DNA of 64,000 bases from NCBI GenBank assembly GCA_028752905.1, contig JAQNBH010000005.1, forward strand, positions 6,498,502 to 6,562,501, read 5' to 3'. The notes under the pieces were generated by a model. It had not been told where the DNA came from and made no database searches. It saw nothing but the letters and a program-made list of their open reading frames with translations. Positions 30,601 through 61,400 of the stretch are shown piece after piece. Source of the stretch: Cladorhizidae sp. MBARI D1340-BT2 (Eukaryota; Porifera; Demospongiae; Poecilosclerida; Cladorhizidae). Positions within the stretch are counted from its first letter, which is position 1. Each line of letters opens with the position of its first letter. A program made the position numbers and the translations under genes.

Positions 30601-31432
30601 TGCACTGGTACGGTTTGATAGCCCTAGAATGACCTCATGATGTACGGTTTGAACTGTCCTAGAATGACCTCATGATGTACAGTCAGTTGACTTTATTAGG
30701 GAAGTCCTGGGATAGTCCCTAGTGTTCAGGGAATCCCGGAATATCCTAGGAAAGATTGTAGGGGTATTGGACATTATGAACGTTGGGGCCAGTTGACTTC
30801 CTGTGTTGTTAATTTTCTGTCATTTCATGCCTTACTACGGAGATATCTACAACTTCCCATCTACTGCATTTGAAAAGGCCCTTGAAGAGGAGGAGTTGGA
30901 GGAGGAGGAAGAAGAGGTAGTGATAATAACCATATGGATGCAGGGGAGGTTGTGCATGCATCACTCCAACCTGCTCGAGTCCCATGATGAAGATGTGTAT
31001 CAAGTGCATGCAATGTCTGTTGATGCATGCATATCCTTCTCTGCTGTGCAGGAGTATCTATCATCATCTAACTTTGTTTGCGATTAGGATGAAGAGGAGT
31101 GTCCTCAAGTACGTGGCTGAAGACAAGATAAAAGGAAAATGATCTTGACTGGATTGGTCGGGAGGTGTGGACAATCACATAGTAGAAGGTACTCCTAAGT
31201 GAGGCAGAGTTAGGAGGAGAGTGGTACTTGGGAAAAGAACAAGACTTCGTGCTCATTGTTGAGATTGAATGTGTGTTGAGATTGAATGTGAAACTGAACC
31301 AGAAGTTTGAACCAAACTGAGGGCATAGTAATGTAGTGTCCCATCATTCTCGTGTGAAAGTGTGCTGTATGAATTTTATCCGGTAAAGGATCGTCACCAA
31401 TAATACCTGCACACGTGGACTAACTCTAAAAG
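30601..31432. other. Region upstream of RRP12
   Basis: Should hold the RRP12 promoter. No clear core motif. A short acidic Glu-rich frame at about 30,860-30,917 has no supporting exons. Confidence 0.4.
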
Positions 31433-34400: not shown

Positions 34401-37400
34401 CTATTTTGAATGTGTAATTTTCTAATCCAGTCCTTTTCTGATGTGATATAGTCGGTCACCTGACAGCAGAAATGAAATTGGTGAATTAGTTCTGTAATTG
34501 GGAGAGAGTTCCAGAACCTAGTACAGTATACCCTCACTAATCCGAATAGCCTGGGGATCTGAGTAGTTCGGATTAGTGAAATTTCGGATTAGTGAAATTT
34601 ATGAATATCATTATATTGAACTCTGAATTGGTTTATTTTTTTCAGGTGTGGGTTGAATACTGACTGGGTGGTGGGAGTGCAAGTTATTTTTAATCATTAT
34701 GATCCCTTCCCGTCCTCATTCTTAGCAGATCTCCGGAATCACATCTCAGTCATCTTCCTTTTGCATCCTCACAACTCGCTGCCCTTCTTCTTTATGTCTG
34801 AGATAGTTGAGACTCCAACTCGCTTTACATGAGAAGTTGGTACAAGTATATTTGCTTTACATGAGAAGTTGGTACAAGTATATTTGCTTTACATGAGAAG
34901 TTGGTACAAGTATACTTGCTTTACATGGGAATCATCCTAGTAAGAGTCTAAGCCACCTGGAGCATCAGGTAAGAGTCTAAGTACCAACTTCCATGTAAAG
35001 CAAGTATACTTGTGCCAACTTCTCATGTAAAGCAAGTATACTTGTACCAACTTCCATGTAAAGCAAATATACTTGTACCAACTTCTCATGTAAAGCGAGT
35101 TGGAGTCTCAACTATCTCAGACATAAAGAAGAAGGGCAGCGAGTTGTGAGGATGCAAAAGGAAGATGACTGAGATGTGATTCCGGAGATCTGCTAAGAAT
35201 GAGGACGGGAAGGGATCATAATGATTAAAAATAACTTGCACTCCCACCACCCAGTCAGTATTCAACCCACACCTGAAAATAATAAACCAATTCAGAGTTC
35301 AATATAATGATATTCATAAATTTCACTAATCCGAAATTTCACTAATCCGAACTACTCAGACCCCCAGGCTATTCGGATTAGTGAGGGTATACTGTACTAG
35401 GTTCTGGAACTCTCTCCCAATTACAGAACTAATTCACTTGGATAATTTAAGCACTATATTCAACACCCCTTATCACCACTTAGACTTTTAACTACTTGAC
35501 CATAATATATTCCTCCATGTATTTGTTGACTTTTTACTCTCCTCTTGGCTATCGAGTGTGATCTTTTTCTATATATATATTTAAAAAAATATATATTTAA
35601 GAAATGCTTAAAGCAGTTCTTCCTTATTAAACCAGATGAATCAAAGAACAGTAGGAAGGAAGAAGTGTTAGTACAAGCATGACCAATCCACAAGCCATGC
35701 ATGTTTCAAACTTGAACTTTTCTTCCCTCTCTGCCAACAGGTCACAAAGGTAAAGGGATATTTACGTCCTGTCCTGTGAGGGCCAGAGATATTCTCTTTT
35801 TGATGTGCTAGCTACCAGATATATGATTGTAGAAACAGATAATTTAGCTGAGAAACGAACTTCAGTTACATGTGAGTTTGTCCTTCCTCTCCCATTTTTA
35901 TATTGGTGCTGCAACTTGTGGTTCTACACCTAGATTCCCCATGCACAAACACAAGTATATCTCATACACACACAGTTACCATGCTTACTAACAGTATACA
36001 TTGTGTATGTGTGTGTGTGTAGGTGACTGCATTAGAGTCCGCAGAGGATGAGAAGTCATGCTCGGCCATCTCTCACCTCCTCAGCATCGTCATGCCAAAG
36101 TGTGTCACCAGTATGCATTTTTTTCTACTTGTTAATTAAGTGGTTGTGTTGAACTCGACTCACCCAGGACTCCAGTGCAAGCTTTGCAAGCACGATACAG
36201 CTCTGTGTGCAAGGTCATAACCGACAAACTCTCGACCTACGAAATGTCAGATTCTACATCACTTCAGAAAACGGTCAGTAATATTATATGCATCTTTTCC
36301 GCGCTGTTTGCCTTGTGTCTTCTTCACCTTCTCTATATTTTTTTAATACTCTGTGTTTCTCTCCTTGTCCATAGCTCATTAGCTGTCTGACATCACTTCT
36401 TGGTGCTCAGGGTGGCTCTGTTTGGGATGAAGGTTACACTCAGAGAGTGTTTCAGCTGCTATTGAATTACACCATCCACCCCAAGCCCAAGGTGAGCCAT
36501 CCCCACCACGCAGTAATTTATATTGCAATAATCTTCTCAATAATCAACTTGAGTTTGTATTCTCTCAACATTTCGACCAGATGCTCTAGTCCTTCGACTA
36601 GATGCTCGAGCCTTTATTCCTTCGACTAGATGCTCTAGCCTTTATTCCTTCGACTAGATGCTCGAGCCTTTATTCCTTCGACCAGATGCTCTAGCTTCAA
36701 CCATTATTCCTTCAACCAGATGCTCTAGCCTTTATTCCTTCGACCAGATGCTCTAGTCTTCATCAGGAATAATGTAACACATCTTGAGTGTACAATTTTA
36801 ATGTTGGGTGTGGTTAATTATTTATATTATTATTTTTCATTTTGTCATGAAGCCCTGCGAACATTCACTCAGTGTATGACCAAACATCCTTGCGAGATAG
36901 AAGTTTTCCAGCATGTCTGCTGAAATTCAATTCCCGAATTATTTCTCACTTCAGAATTACCTGCTTGCCAGTGTTAACACAAACGTTGGATTTAACTCCT
37001 TTGTGGCTACCATAATATTTTAACCCACGGTTTTTTCAACTTTAACCCCTTTGTAGCTGCCATAATGTATGTATTTAATCCTACAAAGACTGCATAGTTT
37101 TTCAAAAGTAATTTTCTCGCATTTATACAAAAACCCTTCCACCCCACACTTCTGCAAGAAAACAGGCGCTTAATTGCAAATAGCCGCTTACTAAACACTA
37201 TTGCTAAACAGCCAGCACTCACAGAAAACTAAAGGAATGTTGCCCGTGATTTTTTAGACGGAGAACTGAGGAGCTAATCTCGTGAGCTAATTGAAGAAGG
37301 AGCTAGTTTCTCGAAGCTGATTAAGCAAGACTTACTATCTCAAAGCAGATGATGAAGGAGCAAATCTCTCGAGGTAACTAAGAAGGAGCTAGTGATGGCC

Positions 37401-40400
37401 TCTCAAGCAAACTGTGTTTGACTTTTACTCCTCGGAGCATATTCAGTCTATTTAAGTATTCCTTGTGAGGAAAAGCTCCTTTTAGCCAATGATGAGACCA
37501 ACTCTTGCAACAGGCTCACTATTGGCATCCTTCACAAACCAGAAGTACAATCATTGGGTACGTCATGGAACTTCATAGGTCGTGGAGGAGTTCCCTGTGC
37601 TACTAGAAGGCTTGGTAAAGGGTTACATGTTCCCTGATAATAAGCAGCAGAACATTGTCTGGAAATTGCGGACAACAATATAATTGCTAGCTAATAATAA
37701 ATGTAGTCCTGCACTCAAACTCCCCTCATCTGTTGCCACGTCTTGTCTACCGGCCTCCTTTGCAATGCAAAACTGTGTCATGTGTGTTGTGCGCTCACCT
37801 CGAGCTCGTGGAAGTGAAACTCGTTTGACAGTAGCACAGCCAGTTTCTTGTCGACAGAGAGCGATTCTTGCTTAGAATCTAGCTAGTTTCTCTTCTATAG
37901 TTATACCTGAAGATGTCTAAGACTAGAATAACCCGTGAGGCTGCCCGCAACAGTGATGATGAGAGCGAAGGGGAGGTGGCCATGGAAGACTGTCATTCAA
38001 TCACAACCGGTCAAGCTCCAGAAACCTCACACTTGAAATCTTCTGAGCGAGAAAAAATGGCAACTCGGGTGAGATAGGAATCACCGAGGCAACCCCCCAT
38101 CATTTCATATTTTAACGAGCGTGTTCTTGTAGTTTCCAGGCAGTGCAGTGTGTGCATGTACTACGATGTGCATGCACTTAATATTGTAGGGCTGTAGAAC
38201 TAAAGGCAAGTCATCAATATACTGGGCAAAATGGGGAGTGTTCCCAGATACGATCATTTCTGAGTTATATTAAAATTCTTCCTCAATGTTTTGTTGAAGT
38301 ACGTTGCCTAGGCAATGAAGCTAATATGTATCTGCCTAACCGGTATTTCTCCCCTCCCCAACGACATCGAGACCAGCGCTACACAGGGAGATACCGTAAG
38401 GATGCCTAGAGGCTGGTTCAGAAATGACGCAATGTTCCGCTCGGCCAGCATCGTGTGTCAATTGACCTTTGAACTATTCGTTTCGAACCGCGCGTAACAA
38501 AATGGACAGTACTGACAGCAGCAGCGAAGACGAGTTCGATTTAGTCGCCAATAGCAGGAGGTGAAGAAAGCGGAAGAGAAGGATGTGGGTACGCCCTATA
38601 TTCGCTTGCTGTACCCTGCATGGAGATAGAACAATCTCCTACAAGAGATGAGGCTGTCTGACCCCGAGTCATTTCCGATTTTTGAGGATGTCAAGTGAGC
38701 GGTTTGACTCTCTTTTAGTATAAGTAATAAAAGTTACCTAATTATATATATATAGGTCAGTCCATACCTGACCAACCAGAGTCATGACAGCTCTGTCAGA
38801 GCTGATATTACCCCAGGGGAAAGGTTGGCACTCACTCTGAGTTTTCTTGCTACAGGCAACTCACAAGTATAGTGCTGAAGAAATTAATTTGTTAGGTCTC
38901 TCTGTCATGAAGCATACCTCTATGATTTTGCTAGACCTCTCTCTCATTCAGCTTCCGTATGGGACGATCAACAGTCTGTACCATCCTGAAGGAGACTTGT
39001 GAGGCGATCTGGAATGGCTTGCAAAGAAAAATATGTGAAGGCTCCTTCAAGTGCTGCTGAGTGGGTGGGGATCAGCAAACATTTTGAGCAGATGTGGAAC
39101 TTCCCAAACTGCATAGGTACATGTATACTAGAAGTACATGTATACTAGAATAATTTTTTTTGCAATGAACGAACATGTATGTATACATACAGTGGCAGTC
39201 GATGGGAAGCCGATAGTCATCCAAGCACCCATCAATGCCGGCTCGCTATACGATAACTACAAGGGCACCCACTCGATTATGCTTCTTGCAGTGTGCGACG
39301 CCGTGATCTAACCATTTGATTGATGTCATTTATTATTTATTCAATTATTTTTTAGGTTCACATTAGTGGACGTGTAGTGATGTGGGTCGCCATAGTGATG
39401 GGGGAGTCCTTTCGAATTCTTACTTTGGACAGGCGTTGGAAAGTGCCTTTCGAATTCTTACTTTGGACAGGCGTTGGAAAGTGCCTCCCTCTCTATTCCT
39501 GATCCACGTCCTCTCCCTGGCATCACACAGCCAGACCTCCCAGCCATTGTTGCTGATGAGGCAGTCCTCTCCCTGGCACCACACAACCAGACCTCCCAGC
39601 CATTGTTGCTGATGAGCTCCCTGGCACCACACAGCCAGACCTCCCAGCCATTGTTGCTGATGAGGCAGTCCTCTCCCTGGCAGCACACAGCCATACCTCC
39701 CATATGCCATTGTTGCTGATGAGGCAGTCCTCTCCCTGGCAGCACACAGACAGACCTCCCAGCCATTGTTGCTGATGAGGCAGTCCTCTCTCTGGCACCA
39801 CACAGCCAGACCTCCCAGCCATTGTTGCTGACGAGGCAGTCCTCTCCCTGGCACCACACAGCCAGACCTCCCATATGCCATTGTTGCTGATGAGGCATTC
39901 CCTTTACGGTGCAACATGATGCGGCCATACCCTTGGAAGAAACCTGCCTGGTGTGTTTTAATTGCCTTATTTTATGGGTCACAGGTATATTTTTTGCAGA
40001 GAATAATGCCATCTTCAATTATAGGCTAAGCAGGGCACGCCGGATTATTGAAAACAGTTTCGGTATCCTGGCAGCTATGTGGCATGTCTTCCGGAGACCA
40101 GTCCTAGCAGAGCCTGAACAGGTTGTGTCCTTCACAAAGCTGCAATAGCTTTACATAATTATTTAAGATCTACAGAGTCTGCAGTGTACTGCCCACCTGT
40201 TTACATTGATGGGCAAGACGAGGCTGGCAACATCATCAATGGAGGGTGGAGGACAGACGAGAAGCCATGTACTGGCATGGAGTCCCTATCACGTGCAGGA
40301 AGCAACAGGTTTTTTCCTTTTTTATATACCATTCCTTGTTCATTATATCAATTTTTAGGTATTCACAATCCGCTGCTTCCACGAGAGATGCCTTCAGGGA

Positions 40401-43400
40401 CTACTTCTCAAGTTCAGCTCGAGAAGTCCCCTGGCAATACAACTATGTTTGCCTACATAAACACAATGCTACTAATAATTTATGTAGTAGGCTGTAGTTA
40501 ATATTTTCCAACATGTCAGTTCACAAAATTGATATTATTTTTATGTAAATTCGTGTGCTCATAATAATTGTTCGGTGGGGAATAGGGTTCACGGGGAAAC
40601 TCGATATTCACAAGAACCTGCCATATTTGCAGCTTTGCCATGGCATTCTGCCTCCTATCCAGCCTACGCAGGTTTGCTGCCAGCTGCACGGCGCAGTGGT
40701 ACACCTCATCCTTGTCCTCCTTTTGAGCCCGCCTTTCTCGTCGGTCCTTTAAGCTCTCGATGATAGGCTCATCCACCTCAGTGCCCCCCCCCCTACCAGT
40801 ACGTTGTCTCTTAGCAGACATCCCAACAGCACATGGGGATGCCACAGTTGAACTGGTTGCCACCGAACACAACTCCAACTGAGATGCCACTGAGACATCA
40901 GGCTCATCCAGACGACATAAAATCATGTGATTAAAGACGATAAAATAACAAACCATCGCGTACTTGTATAGGCTTACCTTGCCTTCTCCAATAGAGACAG
41001 CTCATCAACTGATTGGTGCAGTGTTTTCCAATGTGGTTGCCTCCTTGGAAATATTTGAGCATGTTCTATATATATGTAGAGAGAGAACATACTCATTCAT
41101 GACTACAAGTCAATATAATAATATACTCATGAACTATGCTTTACCAGTCTCCTGTAAAAAGGATAAGATGGAAAACAATGGCCAGCATGAGATCACCACG
41201 GGGCCCTGCATCGCCACTCTTGGGCTTCTTCTTCAGTTCGCGCACATACCTATTCCTCGGAGTCTTCCATTTTTTGGAGCATTGTTCTGCGCTTGCTCCT
41301 TACCCAACCTATCATATTAATATGTGAATAATTGTAGTCACTCTAGAAACTAGACATAGCTAGGCCATTCTTTCTATAGCTAGTTATAGCTAGATCTTCT
41401 TACCTGACTTGCCACTGCCTTCCAGGCATTCTCTTTGGCACGAATATCCGTAAGATTTTTCAGTCACCAGCCACAAACAGGGAAAGTTCCTGACAGGTTC
41501 AGCCAACTGCTCTTCATCGATAAACATCTTGGGATAGTGGCTAAAGTACAGGTCAGCGGCACGTGATAGATTATAGCCTTCTGATTGGTCTGATGCTGCG
41601 TTTCAGACGCTGGATTAGCTAATTGAGAATACAGCTCTGTCGCATTGCGCTCCGTTGCATTTCAGGTTCACAACACGATGCAACGTCACGCTCGGATGCA
41701 ACGCTCCGCTTAGCCAGCGTCGTGTTGTGAACCAGCCTTAAGAAAGACAGTTTGTAATGACAATGGAGAAATCCCTTGACACCCTTTTGAGTGCTAAACA
41801 ATGAGACGCTTAAATAACCAGAGTTTATGGTCAGTGTGTAGGAACTGGTATTAACCCCACTAGCAACTAACTATGCAGTTATCATTAACCCTACTTATTC
41901 TCAATTCCAACCGCACATCATTGGTATAGAACAAGCCCGTGCACACTGCGCTCCTAATGTGCTTTAGATGTGCACATCTACACTGAATTCAAATTAGGGC
42001 ATTACATCCCAATGCACCTCATGAAGTGGTTTGAACTGATTCAAAGTGATTCAGAGCAATGGATGTAGGCACTACAAGTGATTGTGTGAGTGTGGCTTAA
42101 ATAGGGTTTGTGTCTGGCCGCTGGTCCGAACATTGAGGAGACTCGAGTGGATTACTTCCTAGAAACTGTTTGTGGGGCAAAGGCTGGGTAGATTTAGACG
42201 AAAAAGCTTGTACACAATCCGATGCTTGCCGGGAGTATCGTGTAGTCGTATTGTATCCTCTGATTGTGCACGGTTCATAAGATATCGTTGCTGAAGCGAT
42301 CTCGAACTCCTGACTCTGCATTAATGGACGACAGCCACAGCAGATCCAGCTCGAGTAGATGTGGATGAGAAATTATTCTGCTATAGCAGTCTAACACTAC
42401 TAACTAATCACACCAGCTAGCAACACTGCTACTAAACAAGCCACACCTCTAATAAACTAACTATCGAGGGTTACATGCTAGTACATACCTCAACTGTCAA
42501 CTTCTAGCTATCCGGTTGCTATAGTTGATCTATGCAATACAGGCGTGCATCAGGTCGGTGGATATGCAACGCCTCCAACCTCACTTTCCACCTATTTCTA
42601 GGCGTTGTCCTTTGCATGTACACTTTAGTAGATACCTGCCCACAAGCTGGGGGAGAGCTTGTTAATGTCCACAAACTCCATAATGTTTACTTGAAGCTAA
42701 ACAGCTGATGTTGCAGTCCATGACGTGCTAAATTCTCGCATTTTGATTGGTCAGACACTCGGTAAATCTTTTCCTAATGTTGCTGGTTAAGTTCTCTGAG
42801 CAGCACATTGTGAATCATCCGTAACTTGCGCTGTGGCTATTATTGTGATGGCAAGTGTATTCCTTGTCTGGATACCTTTGATTATTAATGCTTCTAGCAG
42901 GGGTGTATTTAGGGGGGGGCGGGGGGAGGGGCATTCGCCCCCCCTTGTATCATTCTCGCCCCCCCCCCCCTTGAAATTAGAGATATTTTTTAAAATAATG
43001 TCAAGAAAGGTGTAATAAGCTTATGATATCAGGTTCAAATGATAGGAATGTCAAACTGAGGTTCTTCTTGGTTTTCTCTGCCATACGTCCACAATCTCTT
43101 CAAGGTCGCTCTCAGAGAGTACTTCTGGTGCCTCTATAGCAATCCTCATAAGGTGAGAAAGGCTGCAGTCACTTAGAGAATTACGCAAACGAGTCTTGAT
43201 CATCTTCATCTGTGAGAAGCTTCTCTCCACAGAAGCAGTAGAAACTGGAATCGATAAGCAGATGGAGGCAATCTTGTGCAAATTGGGAAACATGGCCTTG
43301 AGCATGTTGTTTGAAACAAGTTCTTTCAGCTGTGATGCAGTAGTATCCCGTGGTTGCTTGACTAACAGCTGGCGGAATGTTTTCCACTCTGTAAGTATTT

Positions 43401-46400
43401 CAGTGGAAATCATGGCTGTCTTCACTGTTTCTTCTCCATCCAATGTTTCTGCATCTCTATCTTCTCCGTAGTGAGCAATCAGTTTCTCAACAGACGTGTC
43501 TCCATAAGTGGGAAAAGATACTGAATCTGGTTTTGGAACTTTCCGTGGATCGAATATAGACAATGCTGATACAACAGCGTTGGATGAAGAAAATCGGCTT
43601 GTTATGTTGGCCTTTAAATCAGCAACAAAAGGCTTACCAACAACATTCTGGAACGAAAGTATTTTATCAGCGTCAATAGACACCTTTGTAGATGTCTTCA
43701 ACGTTTTCAAGAAGCTCCAACACCCAGTTCGCTCCAGGCAAAACTGCATCATCCAAGGATTTAACAGTAGCATCAACAAGGAATGATATCAACGAGAGGT
43801 CAAGCTGCTCTGCCTGAAGTGCTTTGCTGAGCTTGGCTACTTGTGGTAGAGTGAAATCAAGCAAATATATAGCTGCAATCGTAGACAATTTGCAGAGGGC
43901 ACCATGGATTCCAAGAGCTTCTGGCTCGTGGGACGTCTCGTAGATGTTCCCAATGGTGATTACAATTGCAGAATAACTTGCTTTGACAGCTTTGACACAC
44001 CTTTCATGTGCCAGCCAGCGTGTGTCAGATGGCTTGATCACTTTCATTTCTGGAAGTTCAAGAACGTGCTGTACCTCCTTCAGACACTCTGCTCGCTTGG
44101 GGGAATTGCGAAAATGCTTCCAAAGAGTAGTCAATGTTCTGTAAACATGAGCAATTCCAGGAGTTTTATTGGCAGCTTGCACACAAGCCAACTGCAGTAA
44201 GTGACAGTGGCAGTGTATAAACAGAGCGTGAGGAGTATGTTTCTTGATACGTGCCTGAACCCCGGTCTTTCGTCCAGAAAAAGTTGCAGCTCCATCAAAT
44301 CCCAATCCAACTATTCTTCCGACTTGTAGACCTTTCTTCTTTAAACAATCGATGAGATTAGAATAGATGGTCTCTGCATCAGCCTTCTTCAATGGAATAA
44401 GCTCCAGAAAGCACTCTACTGGTACACCATCTTCCTCCCAGCGGCAAAACACAGACAATTCTTCTACGTTGGTGACATCTGTGCACTCATCTGCCATGAG
44501 GCTGTACATAGGTGCCTTTTGAAGTCGCTTCAGAATCGACTCCTCCACCCATGTCCCCAATGATTCGATGAATTCAACCACAGCCACTCTTGATGTGTAC
44601 ACAGCATTTCTTGGTGCAGTTTCTAAGAATTGCTTCAAATGTTGGCTGCCACATCGAACCACCACGTCAACCAGCTTCTCAAATTTAGTCGAATGTGCAA
44701 CTTGTTCTTTCGTAAGAAAATGAGTGAGTAGGATCAGGCACTTCACTGCAGCTCTGTTCTGAGCTCTTTTGCGAGCTAAAACATTCTGGAGTTGCTGTAC
44801 AACTGTTCCACCTTTGGCTGCTCCTTTAGCTGCAAAAAGAGCTTGAGTTGCATGGATATGGAAGTCACTTCTCGCATGAGCTTTCATTTTTTCAACAGCT
44901 TTCTTCCAATTTCTGCAAGGTTGTGTGACCCACACTCCTCCAGTACGCTGCAGACCAGATTGCTTGCAAACCTTGCAAAAGGCACCATCGCTATCCTCGT
45001 CATAATAGAGCCAACTGAAATCTTTCTCCCAGCTCTTAGAGTATTTTCTCTTCGTGGATACAGAAGAGCGGTGTTTGTTTTGCTTGCTTTTCTTTGAAGG
45101 TGGAGGACTAAGGCTAGGACTAGATGCCTCGACATGCTCAGAGCTATCTGTTCTGCTATCTTCGCTATCGCTGCTATTAGCATGAGAAGAGGCTTGAGAA
45201 GTACTTGCAAAGTATGAGCGAATATCCATATTAATATGAAGAGAAATCAGCTAGTAAGGTTTCTTTTATAGAGACTTTAAGACCATGACATAATGGACTG
45301 AGTTAAAAATACTGAGAGAGAGTGGGAAAGAAGGAGGGAACTGAAGAAGTGACAAACCTACAAAGGAGAACACGTGGTGGCGTGTGATGACATCATGTCT
45401 AAGATTAGACTTGAAGACCATGACATAATGGACTGAGTTAAAAATACTGAGAGAGAGGGAGTGGGAAAGAAGGAGAAACAAAAGAAGTGACAAACCTACA
45501 AAGGAGAGCACGTGGTGGTGTGTGATGTCATCGTGTCATGACACATGCTCTCCTTTTTCCAAGCAGCTACAATATCATGAGAAATATATACAGTCTAGCC
45601 ATAGTTCGGTATAGCATAATGCCATTGGTAGTCAGTCAAAATAGCTATCCTCAGACATTGTAAAAGCAAAAAAATATATGGGGGGATCTTCCCCCCAGAC
45701 CCCCCTTTTACGACTTATGAACATGTTAAGAAAATATTAACAAAAATTAGGGCACCAAGTGACCAACCATTTCCACCCCCCCCCCCCCCTAGAGAACTAG
45801 AGAAAAATTGTGTATGAAACCTGTTGTCCATGATTTTGTAAGAAAATGCATGGAATGCAACATATTTCACAAAAGCCCACCTCCATTATACGAGTGACAA
45901 GTGACTATATCTAATCTATATATGCTGATTGCCGTAGCATGCAACTTCAGCAAATATTTAAGATGGAATGTTGTACTAAAGATTTTAGAAAAAGTGCATG
46001 CCATCATAAGTAGCAGCTATATATACAGTTAGTACTGCAAAAATACCTGTGGGTAAAACACTTTCGTACTCCACGCGGAAGCCCAGGGTGCACGTCCCCT
46101 TTCTGCACCATCCAGGCTCTCCGCCCCCCCTTATTTTTCCATATCTCAAGTTCGCCCCCCCTTGGCAAAATTTCTGTATACAACCCTGTTCTAGGGAAGC
46201 TGGATGAGTAGCAGACTTTGGTATGGGTTCCACTCTGATTTCCTCCCTCCCCCATCTCTTGGGTGATCATGGGGGTGTCATCCTTCAACGATACAGCCTT
46301 TCTCTTAGCTCTATCCTCTGCTGGGTGGATGACACCAGTGTACGTAGATTCAAATTCAGGTTTTGTGCTTTTGATCACTTGGATTTCGGCATGGTGTGGA

Positions 46401-49400
46401 CAGGTCATTTTCAAGTTTCAACTCAAGGCAGCCTTGCTCATGATCAAGTGGGCCTTTTCGTGTCTGGAAGAGTCTTCATCATTGTAGCCACTTGCTATCA
46501 CTCCAGTTGGTTCTTCGCTGTCCCAAGCTCAAAGACGTCTTCCTCAGCGTAGCTTCTTCTAGCCATCAATTCTCATGGAGAGTAGCTTGCTAACCACTCA
46601 ATTCTAAAACACATGACATAATCACTCCCACTCTCCCCTCCACATATCATTCACTGTACTGACATTCGATATATGCAGCATCAAAATATGAAATGACCCA
46701 GACATGCGTTATGCACCCTATATCATCCTAGGGTTTACACAAGTGTTTAACTCCTTTGAAGCTGCATAAGGCTACTCTTAGGTTGACACAACTGCTGAGT
46801 TTTAACTTTAACCCCTTTGTAGCTGCGTTTTAACTTTAATCCCTTTGTAGCTGCGTAAGTCTGCACAAAGCGGTGTTGTGTCCATTTTGCGAGAGGGGAC
46901 ATTGAGCGGTGACTTCCATTCTGCGGCTAGACTTACTGCAGTGCACTGCTCCCACTTGATGGACAAGGGCAGCGCGGAGACCTCTGTACTGCACCTGCTG
47001 GGCATGCTCAAGGATTGTCTGCCTAACATGAGGACCACTGTGAGTTGCTATGCATGTTCATGAGGACCACTGTGAGTTACTATGCATGTTCATGAGGACC
47101 ACTGTGAGTTGCTATGCATGTTCATGAGGACCACTGTGAGTTGCTATGCATGTTCATGAGGACCACTGTGAGTTGCTATGCATGTTCATGAGGACCACTG
47201 TGAGTTGCTATGCATGTTCATGAGGACCACTGTGAGTTGCTATGCATGTTCATGAGGACCACTGTGAGTTGCCATGCATGTTCATGAGGACCACTGTGAG
47301 TTGCCATGCATGTTCATGAGGACCACTGTGAGTTGCCATGCATGTTCATGAGGACCACTGTGAGTTGCTATGCATGTTCATGAGGACCACTGTGAGTTGC
47401 TAGGCATGTTCATGAGGACCACTGTGAGTTGCTATGCATGTTCATGAGGACCACTATGAGTTGCTATGCATGTTCATTCATGAGGACCACTGTGAGTTGC
47501 TATGCATGTTCATGAGGACCACTGTGAGTTGCTATGCATGTTCATGAGGACCACTGTGAGTTGCTATGCATGTTCATGAGGACCACTGTGAGTTGCTATG
47601 CATGTTCATGAGGACCACTGTGAGTTGCTATGCATGTTCTCATGAGGACCACTGTGAGTTGCTATGCATGTTCATGAGGACCACTGTGAGTTGCTATGCG
47701 TGTTCATGAGGACCACTGTGAGTTGCTAGGCATGTTCATGAGGACCACTGTGAGTTGCTATGCATGTTCATGAGGACCACTGTGAGTTGCTATGCATGTT
47801 CATGAGGACCACTGTGAGTTGCTATGCATGTTCATGAGGACCACTGTGAGTTGCTATGCATGTTCATGAGGACCACTGTGAGTTGCTATGCATGTTCATG
47901 AGGACCACTGTGAGTTGCTATGCATGTTCATGAGGACCACTGTGAGTTGCCATGCATGTTCATGAGGACCACTGTGAGTTGCCATGCATGTTCATGAGGA
48001 CCACTGTGAGTTGCTATGCATGTTCATGAGGACCACTGTGAGTTGCTAGGCATGTTCATGAGGACCACTGTGAGTTGCTATGCATGTTCATGAGGACCAC
48101 TGTGAGTTGCCATGCATGTTCATGAGGACCACTGTGAGTTGCTATGCATGTTCATGAGGACCACTGTGAGTTGCTAGGCATGTTCATGAGGACCACTGTG
48201 AGTTGCTATGCATGTTCATGAGGACCACTGTGAGTTGCTATGCATGTTCATTCATGAGGACCACTGTGAGTTGCTATGCATGTTCATGAGGACCACTGTG
48301 AGTTGCTATGCATGTTCATGAGGACCACTGTGAGTTGCTATGCATGTTCATGAGGACCACTGTGAGTTGCTATGCATGTTCATGAGGACCACTGTGAGTT
48401 GCTATGCATGTTCTCATGAGGACCACTGTGAGTTGCTATGCATGTTCATGAGGACCACTGTGAGTTGCTATGCATGTTCATGAGGACCACTGTGAGTTGC
48501 TAGGCATGTTCATGAGGACCACTGTGAGTTGCTAGACATGTTCATGAGGACCACTGTGAGTTGCTATGCATGTTCATGAGGACCACTGTGAGTTGCTATG
48601 CATGTTCATGAGGACCACTGTGAGTTGCTATGCATGTTCATGAGGACCACTGAGTTGCTAGGCATGTTCATGAGGACCACTGTGAGTTGCTATGCATGTT
48701 CATGAGGACCACTGTGAGTTGCTATGCATGTTCATGAGGACCACTGTGAGTTGCTATGCATGTTCATGAGGACCACTGTGAGTTGCTATGCATGTTCATG
48801 AGGATCACTGAGTTGCTATGCATGTTCATGAGGACCACTGTGAGTTGCTATGCATGTTCATGAGGACCACTGTGAGTTGCTATGCATGTTCATGAGGACC
48901 ACTGTGAGTTGCTATGCATGTTCATGAGGACCACTGTGAGTTGCTATGCATGTTCATGAGGACCACTGTGAGTTGCTATGCATGTTCATGAGGACCACTG
49001 TGAGTTGCTATGCATGTTCATGGGGACCACTGTGAGTTGCTATGCATGTTTATGAGGACCACTGTGAGTTGCTATGCATGTTCATGAGGACCACTGTGAG
49101 TTGCTATGCATGTTCATGAGGACCACTGTGAGTTGCTATGCATGTTCATGAGGACCACTGTGAGTTGCTATGCATGTTCATGAGGACCACTGTGAGTTGC
49201 TATGCATGTTCATAAAGGATTACGATATCATGTGGCCCGGGTTATGGCTAAGGTACTGCATCGTATAGCTAGGGTTAAGGGAGTGAGCGCTCTATGGAAG
49301 TAGGTGGATGAGTGGTACATCAAACTTCCCTCTCATAATTAAGAGGGGATGCCTAATGTTGCCATGTTCTTTCATAGGACATCCCTGGCTATCCCTGGTG

Positions 49401-52400
49401 ACCTGGTGGGGGTGACCAACTATGCAGAATTGATCCCTAAACTCTTGCCCCTTCCCTATCCACTAGAATACCCCCTCACCAGAGCCCTAGAATACCCCTC
49501 GCCAGATCCCTAGAATATCCCTCACCAGAGCCCCTCGCCAGAGCCCTAGAATACCCCTCGCCAGAGCCCTAGAATATCCCTCACCAGAGCCCCTCGCCAG
49601 AGCCCTAGAATATCCCTCACCAGAGCCCTCACCAGAGCCCTAGAATACCCCTCGCCAGAGCCCTAGAATACCCCTCGCCAGAGCCCTAGAATACCCCCTC
49701 ACCAGAGCCCTAGAATACCCCTCACCAGAGCCCTAGAATACCCCTCGCCAGAGCCCTAGAATACCCCTCACCAAGCCCTAGAATACCCCTCACCAGAGCC
49801 CTAGAATACCCCTCACCAGAGCCCTAGAATACCCCTCACCAGAGCCCTAGAATATCCCTCACCAGAGCCCTAGAATACCCCTCGCCAGAGCCCTAGAATA
49901 CCCCTCACCAGAGCCCTAGAATACCCCTCACCAGAGCCCTAGAATACCCCTCGCCAGAGCCCTAGAATACCCCTCACCAGAGCCCTAGAATACCCCTCAC
50001 CAGAGCCCTAGAATACCCCTCACCAAGCCCTAGAATACCCCTCGCCAGAGCCCTAATACCCCTCACCAGAGCCCTAGAATACCCCTCACCAGAGTCCTAG
50101 AATACCCCTCACCAGAGCCCTAGAATACCCCACGCCAGAGCCCTAGAATACCCAGGGGTGTATTTAGGGGGGGGCGGGGGGGGGCATTCGCCCCCCCTTG
50201 TATCATTCTCGCCCCCCCCCCTTGAAATTAGACACCACCCTTATACATTACATACACCATCATTGTATCATTCTCGCCCCCCCTTATTTTTCCATATCTC
50301 AAGTTCGCCCCCCCTTGGCAAAATTTCTGTATACAACCCTGTTATACCCCTCGCCAGAGTCCTAGAATACCCCTCGCCAGAGCCCCCATAACCCTAGAAT
50401 ACCCGTAGCCATGCCCTAGAATACCCGTAGCCATGCCCTAGAATACCAATAGCCAGAGCCCAAGAATACCTGTAGCTAGAGCCCTAGAATACAGCCCTCT
50501 CACCAGAGCCCTAGAATATCCCTCACCAGAGCCCTAGAATGCCCATAGCCAGAGCCCTAGAATACCCATAACCCTAGAATACCCGTAGCCATGCCCTAGA
50601 ATACCCCTCGCCAGAGCCCTAGAATGCCCATAGCCAGAGCCCTAGAATACCCATAGCCAGAGCCCGTAGCCATGCCCTAGAATACCCCTCGCCAGAGCCC
50701 TAGAATACCAATAGCCAGAGCCCAAGAATACCCCTCGCCAGAGCCCTAGAATACCAATAGCCAGAGCCCAAGAATACCTGTAGCCAGAGCCCAAGAATAC
50801 CTGTAGCCAGAGCCCTAGAATACCCCTCACCAGAGCCCTAGAATACCCATAGCCAGAGCCCTAGAATACCCATAGCCAGAGCCCTAGAATACCCATAGCC
50901 AGAGCCCTAGAATACCCATAGCCAGAGCCCTAGAACACCAATAGACAGAGCCCTAGAATACCCCTCGCCAGAGCCCTAGAATACCCATAGCCAGAGCCCT
51001 AGAATGCCCATAGCCAGAGTCCTAGAATACCCATAGCCAGAGCCCTAGAATGCCCATAGCCAGAGCCCTAGAATACCCCTCGCCTGAAAATACCCTTAGC
51101 CATGACCCTAGAATACCCCTGGCCATCTTCAGCACTTCTCCCTACATCTACGACATTATGAATAGGCAGACCTCTGACCCTAGAATACTCTGGCCATAGC
51201 TTTAGAATACCACTGGCCATAGCCCTGGAATTCTCCTGACCAAATCCAAGGAGATGGTCCTTCTGGGGTGCTTGTCAGTGGATTCTGATAAGAGTCCCAA
51301 TGGTTGCCACTTGTCCTCTTCAGAAACATCATCTGATTTGACTACAATTCTTTGCATTTCTCTCTGCAGCATGTGAAGTCTCTCTGTGAGCAGATCCTGA
51401 AGCTCATCTCCTTAGGCAACTCAGTCAGTCTCGCTTACTTTCTCTCCTAATGCCATATCGAGTTGTTTTACTTGTGCAATAACCCTTTCTTTCACAGGTT
51501 ATGCGATCGACTGCCTACAAGGCGTTGCACGGGCTCTTCTCGTCAGTGGCCGGACCGCAGGGGCTAACCCCTCAGCTCAATGCTAAACTGATTACCGTAC
51601 GGTTATGTCTAATTTTTATTTTTGTTGTTTTGTTTCTATTTGTTGTTGTTGTTGTTGTTGATACACACGTGTGCCCTCAGGCTCTTTACGACTACCAACC
51701 CAGCCTTGTGGATGTGCAGCTGTTGAACGCATGGCTGATAGTAATGGAGGCAGCACACCAAAGACTCCTGACCTTTGACCAAGACCTTGGGCTGGCACAT
51801 CTTCCTAAGCTCTTCTCCTACACCTTGGAGTGCTTCATGGCTAACAGAGACTTTGTGAAGAAGACAGCCACATCTCTGATGGTGGTGCGTACTTAGAAGC
51901 TTAGCTTGCTGCAGTGGTTTAGTTGGTAGTCTCTATTTTTAGGGCATCACGAAGAAATTGGAAGGCAGTCTTCCTACTCACTCAGAAAAGGACAGCACAG
52001 GTAAAAGTTATGCTATTATTTTCAGCCATGCCACCTAGCCCTGGCCCTCAAATATTCTGTGGGTTTCTCTTTCAATCAGCATATTGCCAATGTTTCAACC
52101 GAGTACGCCTGATGAAGACGAGTCTATTTCGGTTTGAAACGTTGGAATAGGTTGATGATAAGACAAATCTACAGAAAGGTAAAAGTTATCATTTCCTTTC
52201 ACTTCTTGATTCTCCAATCTCCTGATTTAGTTCCGCGTCATGCAACTCCCACTCTCCCTGAGGTGTATGGTATCCCCGTACCCGGACATGCTGACAAGAA
52301 CTTGTTCCAAGTGATTGGGCCAAGGCACTACTCCTTTGCAACCTTGCTCCTGGGGGAGGAGGGTGGAGAAGCTAAGATGGAGGCCATTGAGCGCAGACTC

Positions 52401-55400
52401 GGGGAGAAAGGTGCTGATGATGATATTGCCTGTGCCGTGTTCCAGGAATGGGTGGCTGGGGAGGGGAGGACGCCCGTCTCCTGGGACACTCTGGCTAGCG
52501 TACTCCAAGACATGAATCTCAAGTGGCTGGCTGAGTGTGTGAGGAAGATGAAGTGTGACAGTGCATTCAAAACAACAACAGCCAGGAATGCTGTGGTCGC
52601 TAGTTTTGAGCACATGTTCAAGTAAGAGCCGTTTTGTCTTGTATTAGCTTTGAGATTGTTGCTGTTGGAACTGTTTGTTGTCTTGTATTAGCTTTGATAT
52701 TGTTGCTGTTGGAACTGTTTGTTTTCTTGTATTAGCTTTGAGATTGTTGCTGTTGGAACTGTTTGTTGTCTTGTATTAGCTTTGAGATTGTTGCTGTTGG
52801 AACTGTTTGATGTCTTGTATTAGGTTTGAGATTGTTGCTGCTGGAAGTGTTTGTTGTCTTGTATTAGCTCTGAGATTGTTGCTGTTGGAACTGTTTGTTG
52901 TCTTGTATTAGCTTTGAGATTGTTGCTGTTGGAACTGTTTGTTTTCTTGTATTAGCTTTGAGATTGTTGCTGTTGGAACTGTTTGTTGTCTTGTATTAGC
53001 TTTGAGATTGTTGCTGTTGGAACTGTTTGTTGTCTTGTATTAGCTTTGAGATTGTTGCTGTTGGAACTGTTTGTTGTCTTGTATTAGCTTTGAGATTGTT
53101 GCTGTTGGAACTATTTGATGTCTTGTATTAGCTTTGAGATTGTTGCTGTTGGAACTGTTTGTTGTCTTGTATTAGCTTTGAGATTGTTGCTGCTGGAACT
53201 GTTTGTTGTCTTGTATTAGCTTTGAGATTGCTTTGCTGTTGGAACTGTTTGATGTCTTGTATTAGCTTTGAGATTGTTGCTGCTGGAACTGTTTGTTGTC
53301 TTGTATTAGCTTTGAGATTGTTGCTGTTGGAACTGTTTGATGTCTTGTATTAGCTTTGAGATTGTTGCTGCTGGAACTGTTTGTTGCCTTGTATTAGCTT
53401 TGATATTGTTGCTGTTGGAACTGTTTGATGTCTTGTATTAGCTTTGAGATTGTTGCTGCTGGAACTGTTTGTTGTCTTGTATTAGCTTTGAGATTGTTGC
53501 TGTTGGAACTGTTTGTTGTCTTGTATTAGCTTTGAGATTGTTGCTGCTGGAACTGTTTGTTGTCTTGTATTAGCTTTGAGATTGCTTTGCTGTTGGAACT
53601 GTTTGATGTCTTGTATTAGCTTTGAGATTGTTGCTGCTGGAACTGTTTGTTGTCTTGTATTAGCTTTGAGATTGTTGCTGTTGGAACTGTTTGATGTCTT
53701 GTATTAGCTTTGAGATTGTTGCTGTTGGAACTGTTTGATGTCTTGTATTAGCTTTGAGATTGTTGCTGTTGGAACTGTTTGTTGTCTTGTATTAGCTTTG
53801 AGATTACTTTGCTGTTGTTGCAGGGCAGTTGAGCTGGGCCTCAAGTACAAATTCTTTTCCTCATGGAAGTATGTTCTCCAAGTCTTCACTACCTTCTATG
53901 AAGTATCTGGGAAGAACAGATCCTGTCAAGACTTCATGAAGGAAGTAAGTCTCTCGACAGTCAGGCAGAATAATAATCTTGCTGTTTGTTATATCTGACA
54001 GCTTATCTTTCCCTTGTGCTGCAATCAAAAGTATCCTCCTTCCTCTCTGTTCTTAGTCTCTGATTTCTCTCGGCGAGCTAAGAAGTACCCCCGACTTTCC
54101 ATGCTGCACTGAACTGGACTCAGCTTTTGGGGCTGCTATCAGAACCATGGGGCCAAGGTAAGCTGAACGGTGTTTAGCCTGACAGGTTAATCATTCCATC
54201 CTGACCATTTCTATTTGTCCTTCCTTCTCTCTCTCTTGTTGTCTCACACACTCGATCACCATGGGAATGCCGGTTGTTGTACACATATAGAGTTGTTTTA
54301 GCAGCTGTTCCTCTGGAGCTAGACACTCATAGATCATCACTTGACTTCCCTAGAAGCTGGATCTTGCCTGTACTGAAGGATCATGTCCGAGAGACTGAAT
54401 TAGGCTATTTTGCTGAGACCATGCTGCCTCTTGCTATTAAGCTCAGATCCAAAGGTGCGTGCATCCACGTAGCTTAGAGTGACAATTACTCCATGGTGCC
54501 ATAACCCCACCAGGGATGCAGTTCCTTCAGGCAAGGCGTCCTTTGGAAGCAAAACTCTATAGCACTTTGCAGTTTCAGGTGAGAAAGATCTAAAAGAACA
54601 CAATCTTGTTGAATTTTGTTGTTGATGTTTTGTAGGTGTGGTCTCTGTTGCCAGGGTTTTGCATTGACCCCGTGGACCTCACCAAGGCCTTCCGTCCTTT
54701 AGCTCGCATCCTGGGAACAGCCCTCAAGGAGAAGACAGAACTTCAGCCATTGGTCTGCCAGGCCTTGAGGCAGCTGATCAGCAGCTCTACAAAACATGGT
54801 ATTGCACCTTTTATTTCTTCTTTTTTTCTTTCCCCCCTTTTTCCCCTCTCTTTTTTTCCCTCTCTTTCTTTCTTTTTTTCCTTCTTTTTTTCCTTTTTCC
54901 TTTTTCCCCCTTTCTCTCTCTCTCTCTCTTCCCCTCCCCCCTCCTTTCCCTCCAGCTTTCCCTCCGGCTTTCCCTCCGGCTCTCTAGAAACCTCTACATG
55001 TCGTTTATGATGGATAATCTGCTCCACTCCCCCTCCTCTTCCTCAATTTTTCCTCGCCATGTTGTGTAGATGAAGAGAGAGCGGTGTTAGCTTTCTTTTC
55101 AAAAAACTTCCTCCCCGTTCTCTTCAATCTCTACACCACGCCCCCCAAAGTGGCGGGAGAGGGAAGTGATAGGCGTGCTCTGCTGCTGGACTGTATCAAG
55201 GCCTACTTCTCCATCACCGGTGAGATGTTCAAGATATGAGGTGGGCATGATGAGAATTTCCTTTCACTATTGCATCTTCTTGGCAGATCAAGATCTGATA
55301 GCCACGTTCTTCTCGAGGCTGATGAGCAGATTGAGAGAAGGCTCCCAATCCTCCAGGAAGCACTTGCTGTTGGACTTGACCCTGGCCCTTTCTCCTCACC

Positions 55401-58400
55401 TCCCCAAAGAATCCCTCGCTTCTCTATTTCACTTCATCTCTCCTCTTCTCGACGTGAGTAGCCTTTTCATCTTCAGGCGCAAACTCGGGCATCACTCACA
55501 CAAAAAAATTTTTTTTTTAAATGAACTGTTATGTCTTGACCAGCAGATTTTCCCTGTGCGTGGCCAATAGTCTGCACAATCATTAGAAAATAGTCAGAAT
55601 ACTTCCAGTTTGACACAGAGTGAGCAAAAAGTGTTTAGGAGTGAATTGTATCAGTAATCTTGATCAACCCTTTCACTCCAGTTATTAGCTTTTCACATAT
55701 CTTAAAATGTTGGTTGTTAAGCACAGGTTGACTCCACCCCCTCCCCCCCCCCCCCCCCCCCCTCGACTCCCTACCCCGACATCCAAGTAGTATTTCCTTG
55801 CCTTCCCCACCCCCTCCCCTGTGCTGATTTTCTTTTCCTTCTTTCTCTGCCTACCAGTGCTAGTGGCAAGAAGACATTGAAGAAGCAATTGCACCAACAG
55901 TGGAAACCCTCAGCAACTGCCCCTCCCCCCTTGCTGGTGATGTTGGTGTCTTGATGTCCCACTGCTTGCCATCTGCACTCTCTCTCTCTGACCTTGCCTC
56001 CACCCACATTCTCTCTGCTCTGTTTTTCTCTATCTGATACTTGCTATTTCTCTCATCCTCATCCTCTAGCTGAAGTTGTGAGGCAGTAGCGCCCCCACTC
56101 TCTTTGTGCGAGAGGATGATTCTGTTTGAGTGCGTTATGCATCTTTGCCGTTGTCCTTTCTCTAGAGTGCTGAGTGTCCAGTGCAGAAGAAAGCCTACAG
56201 CTGCCTCGAAGTATTGCTCTCTGGCTCCACTGCAGAGCACCAGGCATTCCAGCAAGACCATCTGGAACCTTTGCGAGGGATGTTGGTCGAATCGCTCTCC
56301 ACAGTCAGTGCTGCCTCCAAAAAGGTTTGTCTGGCCGTCTTTCTCCAATTTTTGAGGTCTCATTTTCTGTCCTCACATTCCATTACATGTGTAAAATGAG
56401 AATATTGCCTGAGGCATCTCCTTCTTTGCTGCTGCTGCCTTTTCTTGTACCTTCATCTCTCTCGCTTATCTTCCTCTATCCTCCTCCATCTTCCTCCTCC
56501 CCCCACCTTCCTCCCATCCATCCAAAGCCTCGTTTGCGGTGCCTCCTTCACATCGTGGAGCAGCTGTCCGAAGAGAGTGCCGACTTTGTCACCAGCATTG
56601 TGCCCGAGGTATGCAGCGTGACCAGTGCCTGTACATGTATCACTTTGTTCGCTCTATTACGACTTGTGAGAAAAGTTTTCGTTCAAGACAACAAAAGAAT
56701 GAGACAACAAAAGAATGGAATGCCTCACAAAAAAAAAAGAATGGTCCAGGCTAAAAAAAATTTTGTTCAAATCTCGTCTGCCCAGCCCTTGCTGTATCTA
56801 GCTAGAGGTAGCACCCAGCCCTTGCTGTATCTAGCTAGAGGTAGCACCCAGCCCTTGCTGTATCTAGCTAGAGGTAGCACCCAGCCCTTGCTGTATCTAG
56901 CTAGAGGTAGCACCCAGCCCTTGCTGTATCTAGCTAGAGGTGACTGACTCCTACCTATGTTGTGCTTCCAGGGAACTGAGCTGGTACATAATTGTGAGTG
57001 GCTAGGCCCTGCTTCAACTGCTAGAGTCCAACACCTTGGCACCCAGTAGTAGCACTCATTTTCGTTCATATTATTCCCCGGATCACTTTTGCCGTAACTG
57101 GAGCTCCTGGAAAGGAGGAAACCCAACACCAACTCAAAGCATGTTTAATATAAAGCATGTTTAGTAAAAGATGTTTAGTAGTATAAAGATGTTTAGTGCT
57201 ATAAAGCATGTTTAATACTATAAAGCATGTTTAATAACTATAAAGCATGTTTAGTACTATAAAGCATGTTTAATACTATAAAGATGTTTAATACTATAAA
57301 GCATGTTTAATACTATAAAGCATGTTTAATACTATAAAGCATATTTAATACTATAAAGCATGTTTAGTACTATAAATACTATAAAGCATGTTTAATACTA
57401 TAAAGCATATTAAAAACTATAAAGCATATTTAATACTATAAAGCATGTTTAGTACTATAAAGCATGTTTTATGCTATAAAGCATGTTTAATTTAATGCTA
57501 TAAAGCATATTTAATATAAATACTATTTCTTGTTCATCTAGATCATCTTGTGTACCAAGGAGGTGAATGAGAAGGTCAGAGTGCTTGCTTACAAGCTGAT
57601 CATAAACCTCGGCCATGCTTCTCAGTGCTGGTTTGGAGGGAATGCAGAAGGTAAAGACTATAAAAAAAGATGGCCTTCCTGGGTGACATTATCATGGGTT
57701 CCTTTTCTTTCAGAGTCGATGATGAAGTACTTCACCTTGGTGTTGGCTGGTCTTGCTGGTTCTTCTCGGATGGTTTCTTGCACTCTCCTCTCTCTCTCAA
57801 AACTAGTCTACGAGTTCCATGGTGAGCACTTGGTAAAGGTCTTGATTCAATTCCTTGACGTTGGACGTCTAGCAGATGTGTGTGTATTTTTAAGTATGTT
57901 CTGCGAGTGAAGGGACTTGAGTATGTACCCATATTTAATACACATGATCTCTCTTCACCATGAAATATAAATGTTTGCATCTTTCCTCCCTAATAAGATG
58001 GAACTTTGTGTCTTCTTCCCTAAAGAGTGTGTCTTTGGGACTCCTTCCCATCCTCTCAAGAAATGGATATTTGACTCTCCCTTCCCCCAAAGACCCAAAG
58101 AAATGATTTATTGTCCCCCTGGGGGCGGGGGGGGGGGGGGGGGGGGCACTTTTTATTTTTAAAGTATCTAAAATTTGTTTAGTTATTCCTGAGAAAAAAG
58201 ATTAGCTTTTTTTTCTTCAAGAGCTTTGCAATGATGAAGGGCTAGTAGCTAGAAGATGCCTACACTCTCTTTAAAACAGTAACCTGATCACCTTTACAAT
58301 CCTCTATAACCACCTCCCCATACGCAGGTTGTGTAACACAACAACAAAAGCACGTTATGAGTGGGGAATTTCCCCCCAGAATACAACACAGAAGGGAAGT

Positions 58401-61400
58401 CGATGGTCAATAAAGTTTCAGCAAGAATCACTGGCAAACACTGATGTGTGACTTCTCACTGGTGGGAAGTGGTTACAAGCCTGTGATTATAAGAGGATTT
58501 TCCGGGTACAGTTTTGAAGAGCGTTCTTCAGTGTAAAAGAGTTTTCATAAAGTAGATCATTGCAAAGCTCTTCGGGAAAAAATCGTTTTGCTACCGGAAA
58601 GACCTGAAAACAAATAAAAAATACCTGTAATAACAACCAAAAACAAAAAAGTAAATTTTCAAGTTGTTTTTAAGGGGTGACGACTCTATTTTTTTATCTT
58701 TTTTTTTTTAACCTGTGGTTACAACTTTAGAGCTCCGTAGATTCTGCAAACTTCATGGTATGGACTTGATATATAGCTCAAAAGATAGGTCTCTCTGTGT
58801 GCTCTCTTTTGATACTAAAATATGTTTCATAGGTATAACTATAGCAAGTTACTAGACCCTAAAGCGGAGGGACCTCAAAAACCTGAATGCTCCAACCGGC
58901 GGCAAAAACCACTCTGGGTTGCGAAGTGCAAAAAAATTGAAAATGGTACGAGTGGCTAGAGGAAGCTCTAGCGCATACAATGACCGTTTTGAATAGGCGT
59001 TAAAAATTTATTACCTGGTCAAAATTGAGGGCGTTGATTTTCAACGCCCTCAATTTTCCACCCGCGCGTTTGACCAGGTAATACATTTTTAACGCCAATT
59101 CAAAACGGTCATTGTATGCGCTAGAGCTTCCTCTAGCCACTCCTTCCTCATAAAGAAACGAATCCGGACATCTCCCTCCCATGTCCACTTTGGTCTGCTT
59201 CCCCTCTAAAGAAATCTATCATTGTGACTCCCTTCCCCATAAGAAAATGAATCTTTGTGTCTCTGTACTCCCCCCCCCCCCAAGCTATTTTCATTTCGTT
59301 TAGTTTTTCCCCTCTACCTCTTCTTCCTCGTAGATCTTCTGGGTACAAGTCTGGTCCAGAAGTTATTTTCCAGCACTTTGGTGTTCCTTTCCTCCAGGAA
59401 GAGGGAAGTGGTGAGGGCTACTCTAGTCCTAGTCCGTGTAGCCATTGGTATCTTGCCATCACAAGACTTGCAGCCACAGCTGGAACCATTGGTAAGCGAG
59501 GTCTTTCACCTCTCAGTTGGCTTCCCATCTTTGTTGAAGGGCTTCAGTCCAGCTCATAAATGTGTGTGCCAGGGACCAACCTTATGGTCCTCCAATAACT
59601 CTCCTATTAATTATTATTATTAAGTCCTCCAATAACTCGCTTATTATTATTATTCCCTCCAAGGGGGGGATCAACCCAAAACATTGACACTAGGAGGGGG
59701 AAAAGACATCTTAGGATTGGTAAAGGTGCTTATTTGTTAGGTGGTTAGATTACTTGAGGGCATAGTCACGAGAAGTACAAATCTGACCTCAGGACGAAAA
59801 GGAAAGGTGAGGTGTAGTCAGCAGAGTCTTGTGGTGTAGTACAGTGCAGCCAGCAGAGTCTTATGGTGTAGTGCAGTGTAGTCAGCAGAGTCTTGTGGTG
59901 TAGTACAGTGGAGCCAGCAGAGTCTTGTGGTGTAGTACAGTGTAGCCAGCAGAGTCTTATGGTGTAGTCAGTGTAGCCAGCAGAGTCTTATGGTGTAGTG
60001 CAGTGGAGCCAGCAGAGTCTTATGGTGTAGTACAGTGTAGCCAGCAGAGTCTTATGGTGTAGTCAGTGTAGCCAGCAGAGTCTTGTGGTGTAGTGCAGTG
60101 TAGCCAGCAGAGTCTTGTGGTGTAGTGCAGTGGAGCCAGCAGAGTCTTATGGTGTAGTACAGTGTAGCCAGCAGAGTCTTATGGTGTAGTCAGTGTAGCC
60201 AGCAGAGTCTTATGGTGTAGTACAGTGTAGCCGGCAGAGTCTTATGGTGTAGTGCAGTGGAGCCAGCAGAGTCTTATGGTGTAGTGCAGTGGAGCCAGCA
60301 GAGTCTTGTGGTGTAGTGGCAGTGTAGCCAGCAGAGTCTTATGGTGTAGTGCAGTGTAGCCAGCAGAGTCTTGTGGTGTAGTGCAGTGGAGCCAGCAGTC
60401 TTATGGTGTAGTACAGTGTAGCCAGCAGAGTCTTATGGTGTAGTGCAGTGGAGCCAGCAGAGTCTTATGGTGTAGTACAGTGCAGCCAGCAGAGTCTTAT
60501 GGTGTAGTGTAGTGGAGCCAGCAGAGTCTTGTGGTGTAGTGCAGTGGAGCCAGCAGAGTCTTATGGTGTAGTACAGTGTAGCCAGCAGAGTCTTATGGTG
60601 TAGTCAGTGTAGCCGGCAGAGTCTTATGGTGTAGTGCAGTGTAGCCAGCAGAGTCTTATGGTGTAGTCAGTGTAGCCAGCAGAGTCTTATGGTGTAGTAC
60701 AGTGTAGCCAGCAGAGTCTTGTGCCGTAGTACAGTGTAGCCAGCAGAGTCTTATGGTGTAGTCAGCAGAGTCTTATGGTGTAGTACAGTGTAGCCAGCAG
60801 TCTTGTGGTGTAGTGGCAGTGTAGCCAGCAGAGTCTTGTGGTAGTGCAGTGTAGCCAGCAGAGTCTTGTGGTAGTGGCAGTGTAGTCAGCAGAGTCTTAT
60901 GGTGTAGTGCAGTGTAGCCAGCCGAGTCTTATGGTGTAGTACAGTGTAGCCAGCAGAGTCTTGTGGTGTAGTACAGTGTAGCCAGCAGAGTCTTGTGGTG
61001 TAGTGCAGTGTAGCCAGCAGAGTCTTATAATGTAGTAATGGTCACACTTTCGTGTTGTGAGGGGGGGGGGGGGGGGAGCTCTGTTGCTGAGTGGCGTAAC
61101 TGTTGTGTTCCACTTATTGGGACGGGTCATATGCTACTGCTGTGTGAAAATCTCATTATGGACCTTAGGAATTGAGCACAACAAACATGTCATATCGCTG
61201 ATGGTGTTTGGATTTCTTTACAGGTTGAAAAATATGGAAGTTGTGATGTCCTTGAGTGCACTTGCTTTTACTTTGTGCTTAACAAAAATACCTTCATTTT
61301 CATCGCCAGGTGAAGAGTGTGTTGAGTTGGGGAGATAATAGACGGAATCACTTTCGCCTCAAGTCTCGAGCTGTGCTGGAGAGGTTGGTGAGGAAGCTTG

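Follow-up and report, generated by a model that had tools for sequence, protein, structure and literature searches.

The 64,000-nucleotide window analysed here lies on contig 14 of the genome assembly (857 Mb, 325 contigs) of the demosponge Cladorhizidae sp. MBARI D1340-BT2, and it carries a gene of the RRP12 family in which one exon, exon 13, begins with a predicted Death domain. In a hand-built model, 20 exons at 31433-55453 on the plus strand splice into a single open frame of 912 residues. The exon borders were picked by eye, every one of them is GT-AG, and 13 of the 19 introns measure 55-133 bp; the gene runs on past 55453, the model covering exons 1-20 only. All of the exons below are on the plus strand and in open frame:

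RRP12 exons 1-7: 31433-31680, 31736-31913, 31969-31998, 32075-32128, 36023-36099, 36168-36273, 36375-36491
RRP12 exons 8-14: 46851-47039, 51370-51423, 51498-51596, 51681-51884, 51943-52000, 52231-52621, 53824-53944
RRP12 exons 15-20: 54057-54157, 54291-54454, 54514-54578, 54636-54798, 55070-55219, 55287-55453

The insert in exon 13 of RRP12

Human RRP12, as present in pre-40S structures, aligned to the model with an E value of 1.7e-164 across residues 14-911, in two blocks (query 14-454 to human 13-442, and query 569-911 to human 441-780). By homology to the human protein, the gene product is a member of the RRP12 family, and 19 of the 20 exons encode RRP12 alone. The two human blocks meet around an insert (the first ends at 442, the second restarts at 441), where the human sequence has many Ser, Ala, Gly and Thr residues. 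The insert and its surroundings are arranged as follows:

51943-52000, plus strand: exon 12, ending in phase 1 at GACAGCACAG/gtaaaag
52231-52621, plus strand: exon 13, a Death cassette joined to a native RRP12 segment, an arrangement also found in the database records P0001, P0002 and P0003
52231-52581, plus strand: the insert, 351 bp or 117 codons, with its frame from 52233
52254-52556, plus strand: predicted six-helix Death-fold core (cassette model residues 8-108)
52582-52621, plus strand: native RRP12 segment by the human alignment, its final codon split by the intron

The insert corresponds to model residues 472-588, which are absent from human RRP12, and occupies the first 351 bp of exon 13; no intron separates it from the native segment, and the donor follows 52621. 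Entry into the exon, behind the AG at 52230, is in phase 1: the codon begun in exon 12 is completed first, and the reading frame begins at 52233; a translation started at 52231 itself contains stops. When the bases of the insert were shuffled, the sequence stayed free of stops in 113 of 20,000 trials. An earlier note on this DNA had claimed 117 extra in-frame codons in exon 13, and the open frame together with the human alignment on both sides bears this out.

A 240-residue query taken from downstream of the insert, the only query used in looking for a second RRP12 gene, matched a single place in the assembly. Within the window, upstream of the gene, there is also an inverted partial copy of the RRP12 3' end (about 28148-30601, minus strand), which matches about 59800-63990 at 77-92% DNA identity, with exons and intron repeats both included.

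Evidence for a Death fold

The fold was assigned through relatives of the cassette. A search of the protein database with the cassette returned two records, P0001 and P0002, and their profile added P0003; in the profile search that gathered P0001-P0014, the best-scoring 7,996 candidates were scored. The cassette profile with P0001-P0003 significantly reached a wider family, P0004-P0014, part of which matches the Pfam Death family PF00531 (best E 9.1e-6), and the profile of this family found the Fas Death domain as its best PDB match (E 1.7e-5). The cassette is thus linked to recognised Death domains via P0004-P0014, and not directly. An AlphaFold2 model of the cassette took the Death fold, a six-helix bundle as in the Death-fold superfamily, with a predicted local distance difference test score (pLDDT) of 82. 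Foldseek ranked Death domains at positions 1-9, with FADD and RIPK1 as the best fold matches.

Several results weigh against this assignment. The window cassette matched no Pfam family at E ≤ 10, so that it does not join PF00531 by a direct match to the family model; the cassette alone found no match in the PDB by phmmer; and a three-row profile found nothing in the PDB but a beta-lactamase at E 0.96. A control AlphaFold2 model from the three RRP12-type rows alone was poor and of low confidence. Because of the missing Pfam match and the poor three-sequence model, we name the cassette a divergent Death-fold domain, as predicted from its model and its relatives, and file it under the Death fold rather than as a member of PF00531. 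The Death-domain match claimed in the earlier note is supported by the relatives' profile chain and by structure prediction, whereas a direct Pfam match of the cassette was not obtained.

Relatives and origin of the cassette

In P0001-P0003, which are 59-76% identical, the cassette is followed by the same RRP12 segment, ending in EHMFK. The cassette is identical at 78 of 105 positions to P0001 and at 67 of 94 to P0002, and the native tail at 12 of 14 and 11 of 14; P0003 shows 59% identity across 63% of the query. Both P0001 and P0002 stop right after the native segment, and we infer from the sequence that their ends are a GTAA donor read as a stop codon. Invariant positions across the three rows make up 52 of 73 inside the predicted helices vs 8 of 21 outside (Fisher p 0.009). 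This helix-weighted conservation, modest evidence from three rows, fits selection on a folded domain. As judged from these sequences, the RRP12-Death fusion is old and kept, because all three records share both the cassette and the adjoining RRP12 segment. Neither the RRP12-type exons nor the Death-exon family had a relative among the prokaryote-genome and viral contigs scanned.

Among the other RRP12 relatives listed, none carries the domain. A spliced-protein search, in which the best-scoring 7,989 candidates were scored, found 203 RRP12 relatives, of which 120 full-length ones were listed. The insert is absent from all of these 120, as the earlier note had expected of RRP12 outside this lineage; their inter-anchor stretch measures 15-49 residues, compared with 149 in the window protein (32 without the insert). 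The nearest three among the relatives listed, P0015, P0016 and P0024, group with the window protein on a 100/100 branch of the tree, apart from fourteen other rows (12 of which are named, all bilaterians, with no named sponge or cnidarian included). Since these nearest three lie on that branch without the insert, the insertion likely arose within the group that they form with the window protein, taken to be sponges. P0015 itself, encoded on a 3.2-kb contig and 1056 residues long, lacks the cassette and has a different linker.

A search of the genome for the donor gene turned up no close copy of the cassette; the next best matches reached E values of 0.007 (with an internal stop) and 0.027, and with no close donor the event would be old. 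At 11 of 15 other Death-exon loci of the genome, the best-scoring listed upstream acceptor is in phase 1 (L002, L003, L007, L008, L013, L015-L018, L021 and L022, several of them near-duplicates), with phase-1 donors as well at L002, L007 and L013. At L001, L004 and L006 the phase is 0, and at L014 there is none; these splice sites are predictions from a matrix trained on the RRP12 gene alone. The cassette is entered in phase 1 on its 5' side and its length is a multiple of 3; its 3' intron is absent. In the proposed course of events, a 1-1 Death exon would have landed in the phase-1 intron 12 of RRP12 with the frame kept, and the intron following it would later have been lost. The cassette was likely gained as a shuffled exon. 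The capture of a Death exon that the earlier note had proposed agrees with the phase-1 acceptors at these loci, but no close donor was found.

At least 45 places in the genome match PF00531 at E ≤ 0.001, and Death-domain exons are clustered at G000:C13 29.5-31.4 Mb, C1 26.4-26.7 Mb and C11 19.4-19.6 Mb.

The introns of the RRP12 gene hold several repeats. Intron 8 opens with a 32-bp tandem array of 68 copies (47027-49213), the unit of which takes in the last bases of exon 8 together with the donor. The array unit spans the exon-8 junction, so the splice donor is repeated dozens of times, and the junction ATGAGGACCACT/GTGAGT occurs 64 times in exact form within 46851-49300. Further into intron 8, at 49463-51084, is a degenerate tandem array based on 23 bp and CCCTAGAATACCCCTCGCCAGAG-like. 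A 44-bp array (52634-53805, 26.5 copies, 95% matches) nearly fills intron 13. In introns 4 and 7, at about 32600-34000, 38500-41600 and 43060-45230, there are apparent remnants of mobile-element coding sequence, seen by eye only, with no search made.

Proposed role of the domain and its alternatives

Death domains, modules around which cell-death and immune complexes form, work through homotypic contact, and Death folds are as a rule interaction modules. Because Death domains act in this way, we propose, with a probability of roughly 0.55, that the exon 13 segment is a predicted Death domain, likely shuffled in, which would let a Death-fold partner dock on the pre-40S particle. In PMC9723619, RRP12 is described as an armadillo (ARM)-repeat protein with 44 central helices that form a nearly closed ring; it coordinates maturation of the head in nucleoplasmic pre-40S particles and has been reported as one of the export adapters. 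The Death domain would protrude from this ring and be displayed on the particle, where homotypic contact would recruit a Death-fold partner. Maturation or export of the 40S subunit would thereby be linked with an adaptor of cell death or immunity; the precedent is THOC1, which has a Death domain within the mRNA export complex.

The main rival to docking is structural decoration: the Death fold may have been kept as a part of RRP12, as a spacer, a stabiliser or a contact for ribosomal RNA or assembly factors, and no longer bind Death partners. The divergence of the cassette from the other Death domains of the genome (E 0.007 and 0.027 as above; 4.4% in a direct hhalign comparison) favours this account, as does the RRP12 ring, which already touches many factors according to the same paper (PMC9723619). 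Against it stands the general character of Death folds as interaction modules. In addition, the cassette is conserved nearly like the native tail, which suggests more than a spacer, although a structural role is still compatible with such conservation. We regard this account as possible but on balance unlikely. A bolder version of docking is somewhat more doubtful: with a Death domain on every RRP12, the nucleoplasmic pre-40S might be a scaffold or sensor by which a cell-death or immune adaptor is recruited, stored or triggered when ribosome assembly stalls, a switch from nucleolar stress to death in an early-animal lineage.

A further alternative, suggested by the earlier note, is that the cassette is optional, an isoform that skips to 52582 leaving the domain on only part of the RRP12. 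The site at 52581 is preceded by AG and keeps phase, so this part of the suggestion stood; the nearest relative, P0015, lacks the cassette, but its different linker suggests another species without the insert. The acceptor itself was not confirmed. With a weight matrix built from the 18 other acceptors of the gene (reference scores by leave-one-out), 52581 scored -7.3 bits and 52230 scored 3.4 bits, the 18 reference acceptors ranging from -1.1 to 11.7. The 20 bases before the AG contain 8 pyrimidines at 52581 and 15 at 52230 (11-19 at the reference sites). Among the 4,474 AGs of the strand, 85% score at least as high as 52581 and 11% at least as high as 52230. Three further AGs within 52000-52625 outscore 52230, but two would give introns of 25 and 38 bp and the third, at 52445, would disrupt the frame. 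Dropping the whole 391-bp exon, which is entered in phase 1 and left in phase 2, would likewise disrupt it.

Intron 12 owes its length of 230 bp to a 178-bp insertion alone, without which the intron would be 52 bp, near the size of its neighbours, and end at 52230.

52000-52189, plus strand: 178-bp insertion in intron 12, with the 12-base direct repeat GGTAAAAGTTAT at 52000-52011 and 52178-52189

Nine partial copies of this insertion, 36-68 bp long, occur at other places in the genome. As 52581 scores under all 18 reference acceptors, optional splicing is not supported and appears improbable, and the cassette is probably constitutive. Among the in-phase acceptors, 52230 alone has a score in keeping with the rest of the gene, from which we infer that the Death domain is made in every RRP12 molecule.

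It is very improbable that the segment is some other small helical bundle peculiar to these RRP12 proteins. The lack of a direct Pfam or PDB match and the low-confidence model from RRP12-type rows alone would suit such a bundle, but not the significant profile link to P0004-P0014, and thence to Pfam Death and Fas, or the Death domains at the first nine Foldseek ranks. It is hardly credible, finally, that the segment is a non-coding fragment of a Death exon, ordinarily removed with intron 12. The cassette is missing from the 120 listed full-length relatives, and the analysis met no spliced sequence with it; yet P0001 and P0002 share its frame and about three in four of its residues, with the RRP12 tail following in the same frame, conservation is concentrated in the predicted helices, and the acceptor needed for removal (52581) is poor.

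Known systems and significance

The human RRP12 of PDB 7WTS and related entries is the same protein along 900 residues; like the other listed relatives, it lacks the insert. The closest relatives of the cassette outside RRP12 are the EWLAG-type Death exons of P0004-P0014 (29-38% identical), which, unlike the RRP12 cassette, are not followed by an RRP12 segment. The known Death domains it most resembles, that of Fas by profile and those of FADD and RIPK1 by fold (13-15% identity in the fold alignment), belong to apoptosis receptors and adaptors, unlike the domain in RRP12. The Death domain of THOC1, which is C-terminal in that protein, came third in both fold searches with the cassette model. 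THOC1, also named p84N5, is an mRNA-export factor reported to induce apoptosis via its death domain, according to PMC5095910. Like this RRP12 with its predicted domain, THOC1 combines a Death domain with a function in nuclear RNA export; it differs in acting in mRNA export (THO/TREX) and not on ribosomes, and no RRP12 homology turned up, none having been looked for.

RRP12 and the Death domain are each known. In a full-text literature search for RRP12 together with 'death domain', the titles and abstract openings of the papers returned held nothing on such a link, and to that extent the combination was not found. As a hub protein, RRP12 is central to the assembly of 40S subunits. With a module of the signalling type fixed in it in one animal lineage and retained by relatives, ribosome production would be linked physically to cell-death or immune assemblies, a link that would be testable with a single domain, and RRP12 would join THOC1 as the second nuclear RNA-export factor bearing a Death domain.
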